A stretch of DNA of 40,421 nt from a virus. The position numbers and the translations under genes are program-made. The stretch spans positions 1 through 40,421 of IMG/VR virus record IMGVR_UViG_3300037584_004175, one strand, 5' to 3'. Numbering within the stretch: the first letter of the stretch is position 1; each line of letters starts with the position of its first letter. Under the pieces are notes generated by a model. It made no database searches and had not been told where the DNA came from. It worked only from the letters and a program-made list of their open reading frames with translations. Shown piece after piece: positions 8,496-14,971 of this stretch.

Positions 8496-9023
8496 TGAAT
8501 TTGTTTCTTTTAGATTTTTATCTGTATATTGTTTCGGTTCTTCTTTTACTTTCTCTTTTATCTCTTCAATTGCTACACCATCTAGGATTGGTGAGTAATC
8601 GTCAATTATTTGTTTCATCCGTGACTCTAGTTCTTCTGTCGATAGGTCTTCTAGCTTACCAGTACGGATTATCTTTTGTTCTATATATAGACCAGCCGCC
8701 TTTCCTCTCGCAACTTCAGCATTAACTGCAGCTGACCATGCTTTTTTATCTCTAGCTTCATTTCTTAATTTAGCTAATTCTGCAATGTGATTACCAAAAG
8801 TAACTTCATATTGTTTTTGCCATTCTTCTCTTAATTCACCAATGTATTGTACTACTAATGGATATTTTTTTGGATTCTGTAACACACTGGCTGCTTGTCT
8901 AGCTGAATCTTTTGCATAACCTGCTTCTATTGCACATTGTGTAGCTGTTTTTCTTCCTTGTTCAGCTACTAATAAATTTGCAAATTTAATCTGTTGATTG
9001 GTTAGTCTCTTCGGTACTCCCAT
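8475..9023 (-). CDS. terS: Terminase small subunit
   Basis: 182 residues from ATG 9023, chosen because GAGGAG lies just upstream; an in-frame TTG at 9038 is less likely. The N-terminal helix-turn-helix type region LTNQQIKFANLLVAEQG, AIEAGYAKDSARQAASVL matches the Terminase_2-type DNA-binding domain, followed by a helical middle and an acidic, Lys-rich tail. It should recognise the packaging site. Unusually it is on the minus strand, about 6 kb from the large subunit, which is on the plus strand. Confidence 0.82.
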   Translation of the reverse strand: MGVPKRLTNQQIKFANLLVAEQGRKTATQCAIEAGYAKDSARQAASVLQNPKKYPLVVQYIGELREEWQKQYEVTFGNHIAELAKLRNEARDKKAWSAAVNAEVARGKAAGLYIEQKIIRTGKLEDLSTEELESRMKQIIDDYSPILDGVAIEEIKEKVKEEPKQYTDKNLKETNSSNEDLL

Positions 9024-9195
9024 TTTGCTCCTCTTCAAATCCTTCCTGTAATAATTCAGATACAGATTTTTCTTTTTTAAATATTTCGTCCCAACGTTTA
9101 CGATATGTATCGTTAGAAATCCTAGACTTTCCGTCCCATTGTCTACCTTTTTCTTTTGTCATTTTGCCGCAATAAGTTCTATTGACTTTTACCAT
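8986..9195 (-). CDS. Small conserved protein upstream of terminase small subunit
   Basis: 69 residues, overlapping the terminase small subunit by 38 bases and probably co-transcribed. It contains GRQWDGKSRISNDTYRKRWDEIF, a stretch I remember in related phages at this place, followed by an acidic tail (FEEEQNGSTEETNQSTD). Function unknown; a packaging accessory is possible from position only. Confidence 0.7.
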   Translation of the reverse strand: MVKVNRTYCGKMTKEKGRQWDGKSRISNDTYRKRWDEIFKKEKSVSELLQEGFEEEQNGSTEETNQSTD

Positions 9196-11235: not shown

Positions 11236-11424
11236 TCATTTTGTCGCGCGACATTTTGTCGCATAGTCTGAACTATTGTATCTGGATCCCTGGAGCTTGA
11301 TGCTTGACGCTTGTGGCTCCAGGTATCCATTCTCTATGCACCAGGCATCATGAATCTTCATGGCCTTCTTGCTCAATCGCTTGTCGCTTGTCGCTTGATG
11401 CTTGTCGCTTGTCGCTTTCTTCAT
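11236..11424 (-). CDS. Small protein partly built from heptamer repeats
   Basis: 62 residues. A purine-rich AGGAAGGAAGGAAG sequence directly upstream supports the ATG at 11424. The N-terminus (ATSDKHQATSDKRLS) is the translation of GCTTGNN units. The middle, AMKIHDAWCIENGYLEP, looks like the conserved core. The next part (QASSIKLQ) is again repeat-derived and sits in the loop of a 13-bp hairpin (11284-11296 with 11316-11328, one mismatch). Function unknown. It overlaps the upstream gene by 77 bases. Confidence 0.6.
   Translation of the reverse strand: MKKATSDKHQATSDKRLSKKAMKIHDAWCIENGYLEPQASSIKLQGSRYNSSDYATKCRATK
11242..11263. promoter_or_regulatory. TGTCGCGCGACA palindrome plus TGTCGCA box
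   Basis: A perfect 12-bp palindrome TGTCGCGCGACA (11242-11253) followed by TGTCGCA (11257-11263). Both contain the heptamer TGCGACA, or its near form CGCGACA, that marks the early promoters, but no TATAAT-like box is found at the expected distance on either strand. It may be an operator or end-of-block site for the same DNA-binding protein. Confidence 0.5.
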
Positions 11425-12140: not shown

Positions 12141-12186
12141 ATTATAAACCTTTTTAAAATTTTTTTAAATTGTACACATTGTCGCA
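12141..12186 (-). promoter_or_regulatory. Early-type promoter, copy 1 (GP88-like gene)
   Basis: Read on the minus strand: TGCGACA (12186-12180), 3 nt, TGTACA (12176-12171), exactly 24 nt and TATAAT (12146-12141). The 24-nt spacer is A/T-only apart from GG near its end and forms no hairpin. It is followed by AACAAAAAGGA, the same leader and ribosome-binding site found after copies 5-7. Confidence 0.75.
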
Positions 12187-12227
12187 TGTTGCTTGTTGCT
12201 TGCGGCTCGCTTCGCTCGCCGCTTGTC

Positions 12228-12406
12228 GCTCGAGGCTTGCGCCTCGAGCTCCCTGATCCCAGGTCCATCTAAACTTCCCTATATAGCTTCAGGTTAAAGG
12301 TTAACCATCCAACCATCTCGCCTTCGGTATCGCCGATGGACCAGGGATCAGTCTCGGTCGGGTGAAGACGGGTACCAGCTACCGGTGTGACACCCAACCG
12401 AGTGAT
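12228..12406 (-). ncRNA. Candidate structured phage RNA
   Basis: No coding frame. On the minus strand, starting near 12406 just after promoter copy 2, three helices follow in order. P1 is 12402-12391 with 12364-12353 (12 bp, one mismatch). P2 is 12351-12335 with 12269-12253 (17 bp, one mismatch). P3 is 12249-12241 with 12236-12228 (9 bp, 4-base loop). Between the P2 arms is a small hairpin GGTTAA/TTAACC (12292-12306). A fourth GC-rich hairpin is at 12202-12222. No U-run terminator is seen, so it may continue as leader of the GP88-like mRNA. Confidence 0.6.
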
Positions 12407-12412
12407 TTTGGA

Positions 12413-12458
12413 ATTATATCATAAAATCTTTTTTTATGATATTCTCCAAATTGTCGCA
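12413..12458 (-). promoter_or_regulatory. Early-type promoter, copy 2 (structured RNA)
   Basis: Minus strand: TGCGACA (12458-12452), 3 nt, TGGAGA (12448-12443), 24 nt and TATAAT (12418-12413). The promoter lies inside the 3' end of the small gene 12414-12599, and the TAA stop of that gene is part of the TATAAT box. The expected start near 12406 precedes the first helix of the candidate RNA by a few bases. The -35-like hexamer is the weakest of the eight. Confidence 0.68.
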
Positions 12459-12599
12459 GTCCATACTTTCTATTTCGGAAAGTAATTCCGACAATTTTAT
12501 TTTTGGAAAATAAGCATCAAACATATTATCGTCTAAGCTTGAGGCTTCTTCACACAGCACCTTTTGGGTGCTGTATGAATTTAAATTGAAGTCCGTCAT
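12414..12599 (-). CDS. Small acidic protein
   Basis: 61 residues, start overlapping the upstream stop (ATGA at 12596-12599). It has an acidic helix-forming sequence (EEASSLDDNMFDAYFPKIKL, SELLSEIESMDCDNLENI). No domain recognised. Its last 45 bases double as promoter copy 2 of the following RNA, which constrains both. Second gene of a leftward early operon. Confidence 0.6.
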   Translation of the reverse strand: MTDFNLNSYSTQKVLCEEASSLDDNMFDAYFPKIKLSELLSEIESMDCDNLENIIKKDFMI

Positions 12600-12784
12600 T
12601 TAAGTTCCTCAACGACATCAACTTTGATATTTTCCATACCATGTTGTTCAGGTTCATCTTCTCTAGCCTCAAAATAGTTGTCGTCATGTACCTCAAAAAG
12701 TTCTTTCGCCTTCTCTTTGGACTCTGCTTCAACTATTACACTTTCCCAAATGTCTGCAGTGTAGTGTACTTTGTATCTAGGCAT
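12596..12784 (-). CDS. Small conserved early protein
   Basis: 62 residues with GAGGAAAG ribosome-binding site. The beta-alpha-beta look of MPRYKVHYTADIWESVIVEA, SKEKAKELFEVHDD and ENIKVDVVEE resembles small phage proteins of this type that I remember. It is the first gene of the leftward operon from promoter copy 3. Function unknown. Confidence 0.72.
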   Translation of the reverse strand: MPRYKVHYTADIWESVIVEAESKEKAKELFEVHDDNYFEAREDEPEQHGMENIKVDVVEELK

Positions 12785-12820
12785 CTTTCCTCGCTTTCTT
12801 ATTTAAGTTAATAAAATCTA

Positions 12821-12866
12821 ATTATAGCACAGGTAAATTTTTTATTAAATTGTCATAATTGTCGCA
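12821..12866 (-). promoter_or_regulatory. Early-type promoter, copy 3 (leftward operon)
   Basis: Minus strand: TGCGACA (12866-12860), 3 nt, ATGACA (12856-12851), 24 nt ending in GTGC, and TATAAT (12826-12821). It is back to back with copy 4; a 20-bp palindrome lies between them. The spacer sequence is unrelated to the hairpin spacers of copies 5-8, yet its length is the same. Confidence 0.75.
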
Positions 12867-12908
12867 CCTATAGTTTAGAATTATTCTAAAAAAATCTGTC
12901 AATTTAAC

Positions 12909-12928
12909 AAATTGTCGCGCGACAATTT
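12909..12928. promoter_or_regulatory. Perfect 20-bp palindrome between divergent promoters
   Basis: AAATTGTCGCGCGACAATTT is its own reverse complement. Its arms contain GCGACA, the core of the promoter heptamer, in both orientations. It lies 43 bases from the copy 3 heptamer and 12 bases from the copy 4 heptamer, which is where a dimeric regulator controlling both early units would bind. Confidence 0.65.
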
Positions 12929-12939
12929 GTCGAGACACC

Positions 12940-12985
12940 TGCGACATTATTGCTAATGGTCTAAAATTTTTTAATTTGGTATAAT
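12940..12985 (+). promoter_or_regulatory. Early-type promoter, copy 4
   Basis: TGCGACA (12940-12946), 3 nt, TTGCTA (12950-12955), 24 nt and TATAAT (12980-12985). The spacer is AT-rich and starts ATGG like copies 5-8 but has no hairpin. It drives the gene at 13013 and probably the rightward early run. Confidence 0.75.
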
Positions 12986-13012
12986 TAGGGTTCAATCAAC
13001 AAAGGAGTATAA

Positions 13013-13573
13013 ATGACTAAAATGACTAAATATCAACTGGAACACTTTGAAAGCAAAGTGCGAAGACAGTTTGATCCATTAATCAGCGACCAAGAGTTGT
13101 TGGTTAAACAATACACAACCGAAGCAACTGACAAGGCAGTTGCAAAGCTCTCTAAAAAAATGGGTGCAGATAAGATCATTAATAAATTTAGAGAAGCAGA
13201 AAAACTGTTAGATGAAGCAAGAGCAACTGCTAAAACATTTTTTCAGAAAAAAGCAGAAAACGAAGATGAGCTCAAAAGGAAGTTTCGTAAAGATTATGGT
13301 AATAGATACTATGATAATGATGAAATTTCTTTGTCCGATTGTGAAGAGCAACTGCGAGATTGGGCTTCTAACCTTGCTCAAAAAGAAATAGAGAGAAGAC
13401 CAGAGGGTGCTAAATTAAAACAGTTGAAAGACCTGAAGCAAAAGGCATTGGATACAGTTTTAGAGAGTGGAACGCCTGAAGCGTTGGCGATCTCTTTAGA
13501 CGCTGTATGCAAGAAGATTGGAACATCTTGGAATAAAGAATTGACAGCTTTACCAAGTCCAACAAAAGACTAA
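13013..13573 (+). CDS. Early-type helical protein of unknown function
   Basis: 186 residues behind AAAGGAGTATAA; ATG 13022 is an alternative start. Almost entirely alpha-helical and highly charged (EAEKLLDEARATAKTFFQKK, SDCEEQLRDWASNLAQKEIE). I remember relatives in uvMED phages but no function. As the first rightward early gene it is a candidate for host interaction. A copy of the promoter cassette starts two bases after its stop. Confidence 0.75.
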   Translation: MTKMTKYQLEHFESKVRRQFDPLISDQELLVKQYTTEATDKAVAKLSKKMGADKIINKFREAEKLLDEARATAKTFFQKKAENEDELKRKFRKDYGNRYYDNDEISLSDCEEQLRDWASNLAQKEIERRPEGAKLKQLKDLKQKALDTVLESGTPEALAISLDAVCKKIGTSWNKELTALPSPTKD

Positions 13574-13574
13574 C

Positions 13575-13620
13575 TGCGACACTTTGCACAATGGCGATAC
13601 CCTCGCCATTGTGCTATACT
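13575..13620 (+). promoter_or_regulatory. Early-type promoter, copy 5, with compensated hairpin
   Basis: TGCGACA (13575-13581), 3 nt, TGCACA (13585-13590), 24 nt and TATACT (13615-13620). The region 13588-13614 folds as CACAATGGCGA, loop TACCC, TCGCCATTGTG. The top of the stem differs from copies 6-8 (GGCGA/TCGCC instead of GGCGCC/GGCGCC) but both sides changed together, and the total spacer stays 24. Confidence 0.8.
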
Positions 13621-13644
13621 GCGATTATTAACAAAAGGAGAAAT

Positions 13645-13863
13645 ATGAAAGTAGGAACTAAATTTAAAATTGGATACAGAGCAAAAAAATACAATAACGA
13701 ATTTATCTGGAGAGAGGGTATCTGGACAGATGAATGTAGAATATGGACTGATAAATCTGGTCAAGCGATATTTACTTACTACGACGTGGAGAGAGAGGGA
13801 TATCGTAATGCAACTAGAGATTGGGTTTTCACTTCATCAACAATTAAACAGGGAGTAAATTAA
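13645..13863 (+). CDS. Small early-type protein
   Basis: 72 residues, ribosome-binding site AAAGGAG at the end of the conserved leader. The sequence is beta-rich and basic (GTKFKIGYRAKKYNNEF, GIWTDECRIWTDKSG, RDWVFTSSTIK), perhaps a small barrel. No recognised domain. It is followed by a gene sharing its stop (TAATG). Confidence 0.7.
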   Translation: MKVGTKFKIGYRAKKYNNEFIWREGIWTDECRIWTDKSGQAIFTYYDVEREGYRNATRDWVFTSSTIKQGVN

Positions 13864-14075
13864 TGAGTAACTTTGAAACAAAACAAATATCGTTCAATGA
13901 AGCAGTGGTTAAAAATTTTGACGATTTTAAAAAGATTAGTAATCACACTGACAAGATTATTGATATACAGCAAAATCAAATTTCAGATTTAAGACATGAT
14001 TTAAAAATTTTATCTATTATGTTTTTTACTGTTTCATTTTTCTTTATAATTGCATTGGGAATACTATCTTCATAG
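13863..14075 (+). CDS. Tail-anchored small membrane protein
   Basis: 70 residues: a polar helical N-terminus (NHTDKIIDIQQNQISDLRHD) and one C-terminal membrane helix (ILSIMFFTVSFFFIIALGILSS). Start follows GGGAGTAAAT. Expected to sit in the inner membrane facing the cytoplasm. It might affect superinfection or host membrane functions (inference from early position). It is the only gene of the rightward early run without its own promoter cassette. Confidence 0.68.
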   Translation: MSNFETKQISFNEAVVKNFDDFKKISNHTDKIIDIQQNQISDLRHDLKILSIMFFTVSFFFIIALGILSS

Positions 14076-14121
14076 TGCGACAATATTGACAATGGCGCCT
14101 TCGGCGCCATTGTGCTATACT
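14076..14121 (+). promoter_or_regulatory. Early-type promoter, copy 6, with hairpin
   Basis: TGCGACA (14076-14082), 3 nt, TTGACA (14086-14091, perfect -35), 24 nt and TATACT (14116-14121). The hairpin ACAATGGCGCC-TTC-GGCGCCATTGT (14089-14113) overlaps the hexamer and spacer. The heptamer begins immediately after the stop of the previous gene. Confidence 0.8.
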
Positions 14122-14146
14122 ACGATTATTAACAAAAAGGAGAAAT

Positions 14147-14335
14147 ATGAAAACATTTATATACGAAGGTACAAAATACAAATTTAAAAACATGGAAGAG
14201 GCAAACGATAAATTGCCTTTAGGTCATGGAAGATGGGACGAGAGAAGTGGTGGTTGTTATAGTTGTGCTCACAATGGAAATTATATTGCAATTAAAAAAC
14301 ATCACGCATGGGTTAAGGGTAATTTTTTTGATTAA
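14147..14335 (+). CDS. Small early-type protein
   Basis: 62 residues after AAAAAGGAGAAAT. It contains GRWDERSGGCYSCAHNGNYI with a CxxC and several histidines (IKKHHAWVKG), so metal binding is possible. N-terminal MKTFIYEGTKYKFKNMEEA is strand-turn-helix. Function unknown. Confidence 0.68.
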   Translation: MKTFIYEGTKYKFKNMEEANDKLPLGHGRWDERSGGCYSCAHNGNYIAIKKHHAWVKGNFFD

Positions 14336-14337
14336 CC

Positions 14338-14383
14338 TGCGACAATATTGACAATGGCGCCTTCGGCGCCATTGTGCTATACT
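14338..14383 (+). promoter_or_regulatory. Early-type promoter, copy 7, with hairpin
   Basis: TGCGACA (14338-14344), 3 nt, TTGACA (14348-14353), 24 nt and TATACT (14378-14383). It is identical to copy 6 from the heptamer through the ribosome-binding site, so the two are recent duplicates or gene-converted. Confidence 0.8.
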
Positions 14384-14408
14384 ACGATTATTAACAAAAA
14401 GGAGAAAT

Positions 14409-14642
14409 ATGACAGAACAAAAAACACATGAACGACAAAATAGATTTTCTGGTGAGTCTATTATGCTTACTAGAGAAGAAGCTACTAAACATGACGCTAT
14501 TTTTTATTATGAATATCTAGCGACTTTAGAAGATAAAAAAGTTGGGATTGATGGACATTCAAAACTTTGGGACAAAGTCAGAAAAAATTTAGATTGGTTC
14601 AGACAAAATAATGCTGAAGCATATATGGTATTACTAGACTAA
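14409..14642 (+). CDS. Small early-type protein
   Basis: 77 residues, helical and charged (TREEATKHDAIFYYEYLATL, HSKLWDKVRKNLDWFRQNN). Start after AAAAAGGAG; an internal ATG at 14463 gives a shorter form. No recognised domain. Copy 8 of the promoter begins within two bases of its stop. Confidence 0.68.
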   Translation: MTEQKTHERQNRFSGESIMLTREEATKHDAIFYYEYLATLEDKKVGIDGHSKLWDKVRKNLDWFRQNNAEAYMVLLD

Positions 14643-14643
14643 C

Positions 14644-14689
14644 TGCGACACTATGTACAATGGCGCCTTCGGCGCCATTGTGCTAATAT
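14644..14689 (+). promoter_or_regulatory. Early-type promoter, copy 8, leaderless
   Basis: TGCGACA (14644-14650), 3 nt, TGTACA (14654-14659), 24 nt with the GGCGCC-TTC-GGCGCC hairpin, and TAATAT (14684-14689). Six bases further on is the ATG of the zinc-knuckle gene, so the expected start site is at or within a base or two of the ATG. This copy lacks the leader and ribosome-binding site seen after copies 5-7. Confidence 0.72.
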
Positions 14690-14695
14690 TAGATT

Positions 14696-14827
14696 ATGAC
14701 AAAAAGAAAGAAAAAAGATAACTCAAAACCAAGCGATTATTTTATCGACTGCAGGTGTTGTGGAAAATACATAAGACCAGATTGGCGATCCACATTTGAT
14801 AAAAGATATTGCATGGATTGTCTATAG
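14696..14827 (+). CDS. Tiny zinc-knuckle protein
   Basis: 43 residues. A basic N-terminus (TKRKKKDNSKPSD) precedes CRCCGKYIRP and KRYCMDCL: paired CxxC-type knuckles for one zinc ion, similar to a zinc ribbon. Probably nucleic-acid binding. It lacks a ribosome-binding site, consistent with a leaderless mRNA from promoter copy 8. Last gene of the rightward early run. Confidence 0.68.
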   Translation: MTKRKKKDNSKPSDYFIDCRCCGKYIRPDWRSTFDKRYCMDCL

Positions 14828-14971
14828 AACTACTCCTCCTAGTAGTTAATAAACCATGACGCAGGCGACAAAATCGCCTGCGTCACGTTAATGCGCGACA
14901 AAATGTCGCAGGGCGCGGCCTTCGGCCGCACTGCTCGACGCTTCGCGTCTCGACTCGCGCGCTTCGCGCGC
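14828..14971. repeat. Cluster of six hairpins closing the early region
   Basis: In order: AACTACT-loop CCTCCT-AGTAGTT (14828-14847); TGACGCAGGCGA-CAAAA-TCGCCTGCGTCA (14857-14885, perfect 12 bp); GCGACA-AAA-TGTCGC (14895-14909, promoter-heptamer core in both orientations); then three GC hairpins with the same TTC triloop: GCGGCC/GGCCGC (14915-14929), GACGC/GCGTC (14937-14949) and GCGCGC/GCGCGC (14957-14971). No U-run, so not classical terminators. It marks the border between early and structural modules. Confidence 0.7.

Follow-up and report, generated by a model that had tools for sequence, protein, structure and literature searches.

The virus record IMGVR_UViG_3300037584_004175 of IMG/VR (40,421 bases, hereafter the window; a fragment without a replication module) contains eight promoters in which the heptamer TGCGACA is followed, after exactly 33 nucleotides (nt), by a -10-like hexamer. 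This promoter architecture with its conserved geometry is real. The heptamer forms one half of an inverted repeat resembling the operators of the redox response regulators RegR and RegA, and the most likely reading, which we favour with some reserve, is that RegA of the host would activate these phage promoters. SAR11 is the likely host, since the portal protein of the window virus shares 78.5% identity with its counterpart in Pelagibacter phage HTVC027P and 62.6% with the one in 023Pt_psg01, an assignment by kinship only.

Eight promoters with a fixed spacing

The eight heptamers reported in the initial annotation were all confirmed in the window, three on the minus strand and five on the plus strand. 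Their elements and the open reading frames (ORFs) that they drive are listed below by window position (bp, base pairs).

12180..12186, minus strand: TGCGACA half-site of promoter 1, at about -52 to -46 of the promoter
12141..12146, minus strand: -10 box TATAAT of promoter 1, without TGn; drives the GP88-like gene 12113-11511
12452..12458, minus strand: TGCGACA half-site of promoter 2; 11-bp hairpin in the spacer
12413..12418, minus strand: extended -10 TGaTATAAT of promoter 2; drives a structured non-coding RNA
12860..12866, minus strand: TGCGACA half-site of promoter 3, head of the leftward array
12821..12826, minus strand: extended -10 TGcTATAAT of promoter 3; drives ORFs 12784-12596 and 12599-12414
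12940..12946, plus strand: TGCGACA half-site of promoter 4, head of the rightward array
12980..12985, plus strand: extended -10 TGgTATAAT of promoter 4; drives ORF 13013-13573
13575..13581, plus strand: TGCGACA half-site of promoter 5, directly 3' of the stop codon of the previous gene
13615..13620, plus strand: extended -10 TGcTATACT of promoter 5; drives ORFs 13645-13863 and 13863-14075
14076..14082, plus strand: TGCGACA half-site of promoter 6
14116..14121, plus strand: extended -10 TGcTATACT of promoter 6; drives ORF 14147-14335
14338..14344, plus strand: TGCGACA half-site of promoter 7, a promoter identical to promoter 6
14378..14383, plus strand: extended -10 TGcTATACT of promoter 7; drives ORF 14409-14642
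14644..14650, plus strand: TGCGACA half-site of promoter 8
14684..14689, plus strand: extended -10 TGcTAATAT of promoter 8; upstream of the ORF at 14696

The -10 boxes read TATAAT at four promoters, TATACT at three and TAATAT at one. A Shine-Dalgarno sequence and a start codon lie downstream, except at promoter 2, which is followed by the structured RNA, and at promoter 8, whose predicted start is the A of the ATG at 14696, so that its Cys-rich ORF of 43 amino acids would be leaderless. The segment concerned is 14684-14698, and the 43-residue product is zinc-ribbon-like. The argument that spacers of unrelated sequence set function apart from duplication holds for promoters 1-4. Promoters 5-8 are duplicates of related cassettes with a hairpin in the spacer, promoters 6 and 7 being identical over the promoter sequence.

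The excess of the pattern was evaluated against shuffled sequence. TGCGACA occurred 11 times in the window compared to 1.85 expected, an about six-fold excess, and no shuffle reached 11. With up to two mismatches, TGCGACA-N33-TATAAT gave 8 matches compared to 1.4 expected and a shuffle maximum of 5. Conservation was examined in 80 loci chosen from IMG/VR by terminase homology alone, from which sites more than 75% alike were removed; exact TATAAT was found 11 times at distance 33 from the heptamer, and no other distance had more than 3. When all loci were pooled, the figures were 66 at distance 33 and never above 3 elsewhere; this pool includes loci selected by the pattern, whereas the terminase-only count and the contigs retrieved by the intact dyad, described below, are independent of that choice. 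A search blind to TGCGACA, using TGn-TATAAT followed by a Shine-Dalgarno sequence and a start codon, returned 63 candidates after thinning; 33 had the exact heptamer at the same place and 4 more had it with one mismatch. Scanning for TGCGACA-N6-ACAAT-N22-TATAAT matched 34 contigs, many with two to four copies; all of those retrieved carried genes of the phage lineage of the window (HTVC027P-like). The elements are promoters whose constant spacing is functional, as had been proposed, and this spacing is conserved in HTVC027P-like contigs.

Each of the eight is a sigma-70 promoter of the extended -10 type and lacks a recognisable -35 element. TGn stands directly before the -10 box in seven of the eight (promoter 1 lacks it), and in a logo built from 24 promoters, which reads TGCGACAATnT(G/T)(G/T)nCAAT, about 17 variable bases and then TGnTATAAT, the T and the G of TGn were each present in 21 of 24. 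No TTGACA-like sequence was found 17 nt before the -10 box at these promoters. The hexamer lying 3 nt after TGCGACA had been interpreted as the -35 element of a sigma-70-type promoter with a rigid 24-nt spacer, and this we now regard as scarcely credible. TTGACA is present in promoters 6 and 7 and in many relatives, but the hexamer varies freely (TGGAGA, TGTCAT, TTGCTA and TGTCCA were among the variants), its end covaries with the stem in promoters that carry a hairpin, and the intact dyads described below reveal it as a half-site, which already disfavours a -35 at 24 nt. No case is known in which sigma region 4 spans such a distance to a -35 element. The geometry is that of a class II promoter, where an activator site replaces the -35 element at fixed spacing: the distance of 33 nt is conserved and the usual TTGACA is missing.

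The inverted repeat and its candidate regulator

TGCGACA and the hexamer had been described as tandem half-sites of an activator. Half-sites about one helical turn apart, as expected of an activator, were confirmed; the tandem arrangement was not, since the repeat is inverted (TGCGACA-N3-TGTCGCA). In the same genomes, GCGACA-Nx-TGTCGC occurred 160 times at x = 3 and at no other gap up to 12, and the centre of the intact dyad was A/T-rich. Because the 3-nt gap of the promoters equals that of the intact dyad, the hexamer can be read as a decayed right half-site. The left half is exact in the eight promoters and the right half has decayed to T(G/T)(G/T)nCAA, while an intact dyad is found at the same place in unrelated phages. 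If the -10 box is assigned to -12 to -7, the centre of the dyad lies near -44. Further dyads in the window are as follows.

12919..12933: near-intact dyad GCGACA-ATT-TGTCGA, between the divergent promoters 3 and 4
11248..11262: intact dyad GCGACA-TTT-TGTCGC, at no recognised promoter position
14895..14909: intact dyad GCGACA-AAA-TGTCGC, between the cassette array and the terminase gene

Relatives, too, have intact dyads outside promoters, like those at 11248-11262 and 14895-14909, and dyads of this kind often adjoin GC-rich hairpins before the terminase gene.

The initial annotation knew of no described promoter with this layout; the dyad nevertheless fits the published alphaproteobacterial RegR/RegA box in sequence and in its 15-bp geometry. 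Bradyrhizobium RegR has the box GNGRCRTTNNGNCGC, R. capsulatus RegA the motif SSGNVRDNHYSNCSS and PrrA the motif YSCGGC(5)GWCRMA (all quoted in PMC5506826), and the DNA-binding helix-turn-helix (HTH) of RegA, PrrA and RegR is identical (PMC5506826). GCGACA-N3-TGTCGC, of the same 15-bp length, fits the RegR box outside its central TT and the RegA motif at its outer positions. Intact dyads in the window and in relatives conform to the RegR/RegA operator pattern GNGRCR-N4-GNCGC, a 15-bp inverted repeat. RegA is encoded in SAR11 genomes (304-312 bits compared to a family cut-off of 250), with a C-terminal domain nearly that of PrrA 1UMQ (RNVSETARRLKMHRRTLQRILSKRSPR) and a nearly identical DNA-binding recognition helix. 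The regulators of SAR11 are few and include RegB/RegA, and RegA has been detected there as a phosphoprotein (PMC13198564).

Among contigs retrieved by the intact dyad alone, promoters with the dyad 32-34 nt before a -10 box were present in phages without detectable relation to the window lineage. When all viral contigs were searched for the dyad with TATAAT at distances of 18-48, 40 nonredundant sites were obtained: 5 at 33, 8 at 42, 7 at 43 and 0-3 at each other distance. Several promoters of the 42-43 class have a normal TTGACA or TTGACT as -35, which places the dyad there about one helical turn further upstream. L308, L409, L430 and L432, all at distance 33, have an upstream motif in common. 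As they could represent a single family, the counts exceed the number of independent lineages. One carrier of the 42-43 class, L453, is a T4-like phage, and L408 had no relative among cultured phages. Comparison of a dyad promoter with cultured phages by blastn gave chance matches only (E = 8), and the fetched parts of cultured relatives of Roseobacter, Caulobacter and a gammaproteobacterium held 0, 1 and 0 dyads, respectively, without a pattern.

In 190 alphaproteobacterial genomes 9 intact dyads were identified, five of which (L464, L465, L467, L468 and L469) adjoin cytochrome c oxidase genes and precede their operon, a respiratory function of the kind controlled by RegA-type regulators. The half-site TTGTCGC is kept at the coxB promoters of all seven SAR11 genomes compared, with TATA(T/A)A at 41-42 nt from the centre of the dyad, a spacing equal to that of the phage 42-43 class. 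In 400 kb of one SAR11 genome, the coxB site was the sole TGTCGC with a -10-like box at class I or class II distance.

In the mechanism that we propose, a dimeric activator would switch on the extended -10 promoters by binding a dyad centred at about -44, composed of an exact TGCGACA (-52 to -46) and, after a 3-nt gap, a weak right half-site that occupies the place of the supposed -35. The candidate activator is the host redox response regulator RegA, of the RegA/PrrA/ActR/RegR family, which would sit beside RNA polymerase in class II fashion. In unrelated phages the dyad is intact and either keeps this position or lies one helical turn higher up, there often together with a normal -35. We infer that RegA binds the dyad and acts as an activator, not as a repressor, and that the genes under its control belong to the early class. 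The arrangement points to a coupling of small accessory genes, whose expression is probably early, to the energy state of the infected cell. A broader proposal, to which we give somewhat less than an even chance, is that SAR11 phages and unrelated phages of other bacteria have independently placed spacing-locked RegA operators at their promoters, and that takeover or accessory genes are in this way gated by RegB/RegA according to redox state.

Several observations speak against a role of RegA. Of the phage lineages checked, one alone had the exact 33-nt promoter with its decayed right half, and a factor specific to that lineage would explain this too. TGCGACA was absent from the nearest cultured relatives, HTVC027P, psg01 and HTVC023P. 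RegA boxes are degenerate and hard to recognise (PMC4263372). The 9 alphaproteobacterial dyads compared to 5 in controls are by themselves not significant, and the dyad with TATAAT was found in 0 of 289 alphaproteobacterial genomes. SAR11 genomes contained no exact dyad, and dyads with up to three mismatches were no commoner there than a reversed control; TGCGACA-N33-TATAAT was not enriched in them and GCGACA was rare between their genes. Simple enrichment in SAR11 thus revealed no host regulon, and a site before regA in one SAR11 genome, considered as possible autoregulation, was not conserved in three others. Given the lack of enrichment in SAR11 and of the dyad with TATAAT in alphaproteobacteria, the evidence from hosts is based on the coxB promoters together with the match to the motif.

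An activator encoded by the phage, such as an unrecognised early protein, might instead bind the dyad, in a system of this lineage that merely resembles RegA sites. We consider this rather unlikely, although the restriction of the decayed right half to HTVC027P-like contigs and the lack of enrichment in host genomes are in its favour, and close relatives have other promoter motifs, as if regulators had been swapped (TTGACA-N17-TAGGAT-like promoters, read by eye, stand at the same genes in HTVC027P and L074). Such a binder is conceivable because the window is a fragment and the ORFs of relatives were scanned only partly against protein families. Against it, unrelated phages have the same dyad at corresponding promoter positions, the dyad also precedes cytochrome oxidase genes of hosts, and no DNA-binding regulator stood out in the scanned ORFs, the gene clusters of seven carriers or a search for HTH_8, the family of the RegA/Fis-type HTH, the carrier genomes having been scanned in part. 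That search gave no match above cut-off in 9 phage records, and Pfam found no HTH regulator among the left-hand ORFs of the window; a phage-encoded RegA/Fis-type regulator was set aside. The terminase small subunit was likewise rejected as the binder, its HTH region being conserved in HTVC027P, a phage without TGCGACA.

The dyad could also be the operator of a host or phage repressor just upstream of the extended -10 promoter. Many extra dyads near promoters could be further operators, and RegA-family proteins are also able to repress (PMC7561615). However, no -35 hexamer is left to give basal strength, the dyad ends upstream of the -10 box, and the spacing keeps phase, its two positions differing by about one helical turn, as expected of an activator; repression seems improbable to us. 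Equally doubtful is that a different host regulator of respiratory genes recognises the same dyad. The link to the host consists of the coxB promoters and the motif match, which would suit such a regulator too, but both the sequence and the 15-bp geometry agree with the RegR and RegA boxes in the literature, and the regulators of SAR11 are few.

Spacer hairpins, a structured RNA and neighbouring elements

Among 190 distinct promoter sequences, many had a perfect stem of 8-12 bp between the half-site and the -10 box, as in promoters 5 and 6 of the window.

13586..13614, plus strand: spacer hairpin of promoter 5, GCACAATGGCGA-TACCC-TCGCCATTGTGC, 12-bp stem
14089..14113, plus strand: spacer hairpin of promoter 6, ACAATGGCGCC-TTC-GGCGCCATTGT, 11-bp stem

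For one stem type, 8 of 12 pairs changed on both sides in an alignment of 26 sequences drawn from promoters having a stem, and the covariation score was reached by none of 500 shuffles. Stems of 8 bp or more, within the spacer or spanning the -10 box, were present in 65 of 90 promoters located behind a co-directional gene compared to 6 of 34 others (Fisher p = 4e-8). As the stem lies upstream of the start site, read-through RNA from the preceding gene is the only transcript that could include it. The spacer hairpin is probably an intercistronic RNA element, serving for example in 3'-end protection or processing, rather than a part of the promoter. An intrinsic terminator was rejected (no T-run follows the stem), as was a required promoter element (the hairpin is mostly missing from promoters at array heads).

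The predicted RNA driven by promoter 2 has a position and layout as follows.

12190..12406, minus strand: predicted structured RNA, two long hairpins followed by a GC-rich hairpin

It folded with a minimum free energy of -107.1 kcal/mol (z = -8.2). Counterparts were found in L272 (9035-9250), L281 (1610-1827, minus strand), L065 (2330-2548, minus strand) and L070 (3780-3996, minus strand), with folding z of -4.7 to -8.2 for the window RNA and its relatives. Two consecutive hairpins occur in the window and three relatives, in most with a GATCCC...GGGATC stem, and L070 has a different stable fold. No match was found in Rfam. Similar GATCCC/GGGATC stretches were seen by eye in HTVC027P and psg01.

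Some promoters carry in the spacer the palindrome TGTTTCACGTGAAACA, which we take to be the bacterial parS consensus (L063 424, L021 3336, L269 18623 and L113 5362, the last two on the minus strand). A second promoter type, common to phages with and without TGCGACA, has a palindrome like TAGGATTGTCCTA between -35 and -10 or over the -10 box and is often divergent from a TGCGACA promoter; it was seen in L070 (4208), L031 (1130), L066 (2707) and L281 (2247), all on the minus strand, and in L074 and HTVC027P (19247). By position only, a small ORF of the window (8986-9195, minus strand) matches HTVC027P gp30, which has been called an ArfA ribosome-rescue factor (PMC12753301).

Significance and comparison with known systems

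SAR11 are the most abundant bacteria of the surface ocean, and little is known of how their phages start transcription. A transcriptome study of HTVC027P left the early switch open (PMC12753301), and a defined cis-element together with a named candidate host regulator makes this question directly testable. If the role of RegA is true, infection would be linked to the energy state of the host, and a consensus-strength RegA site would be available for a family whose binding site is hard to define. Under the broader proposal, two promoter classes offset by one helical turn would form a redox equivalent of the phage programme that is timed by CtrA. Cassette genes and a new structured RNA are also singled out by the promoters for further work.

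In class II promoters of the CRP, FNR and PhoB type, an activator dyad centred near -40 to -44 replaces the -35, and in the case of PhoB the boxes are direct repeats. The promoters described here are alike in having such a dyad, and they differ in its centre at about -44 combined with an extended -10, the PhoB boxes also lying nearer the -10. From general knowledge, lambda CII, T4 MotA, the N4 hairpin promoters and PhoB were set aside since their geometry differs. Within the same phage group, the promoters of HTVC027P serve the same genes in the region between the terminase genes, but they consist of TTGACA-N17-TAGGAT with a TAGGATnRTCCTA-like palindrome and lack TGCGACA. Expression of gp33 and gp34 in HTVC027P is early to middle (PMC12753301).

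The operators of RegR, RegA and PrrA (ActR) share with the phage dyad the GCGAC...GTCGC inverted repeat, the 15-bp geometry and the location before cytochrome c oxidase genes, and their regulator is host-encoded. They belong, however, to cellular redox genes, are degenerate and have no locked spacing, whereas the phage sites are predicted ones at fixed distances. The CtrA-dependent promoters of Caulobacterales phages (PMC9437464) are alike in that phages put consensus-like sites for a master regulator of the host at their own promoters. Regulator and site are different there, and in the window the same rigid geometry is present at every promoter of the cassette array.

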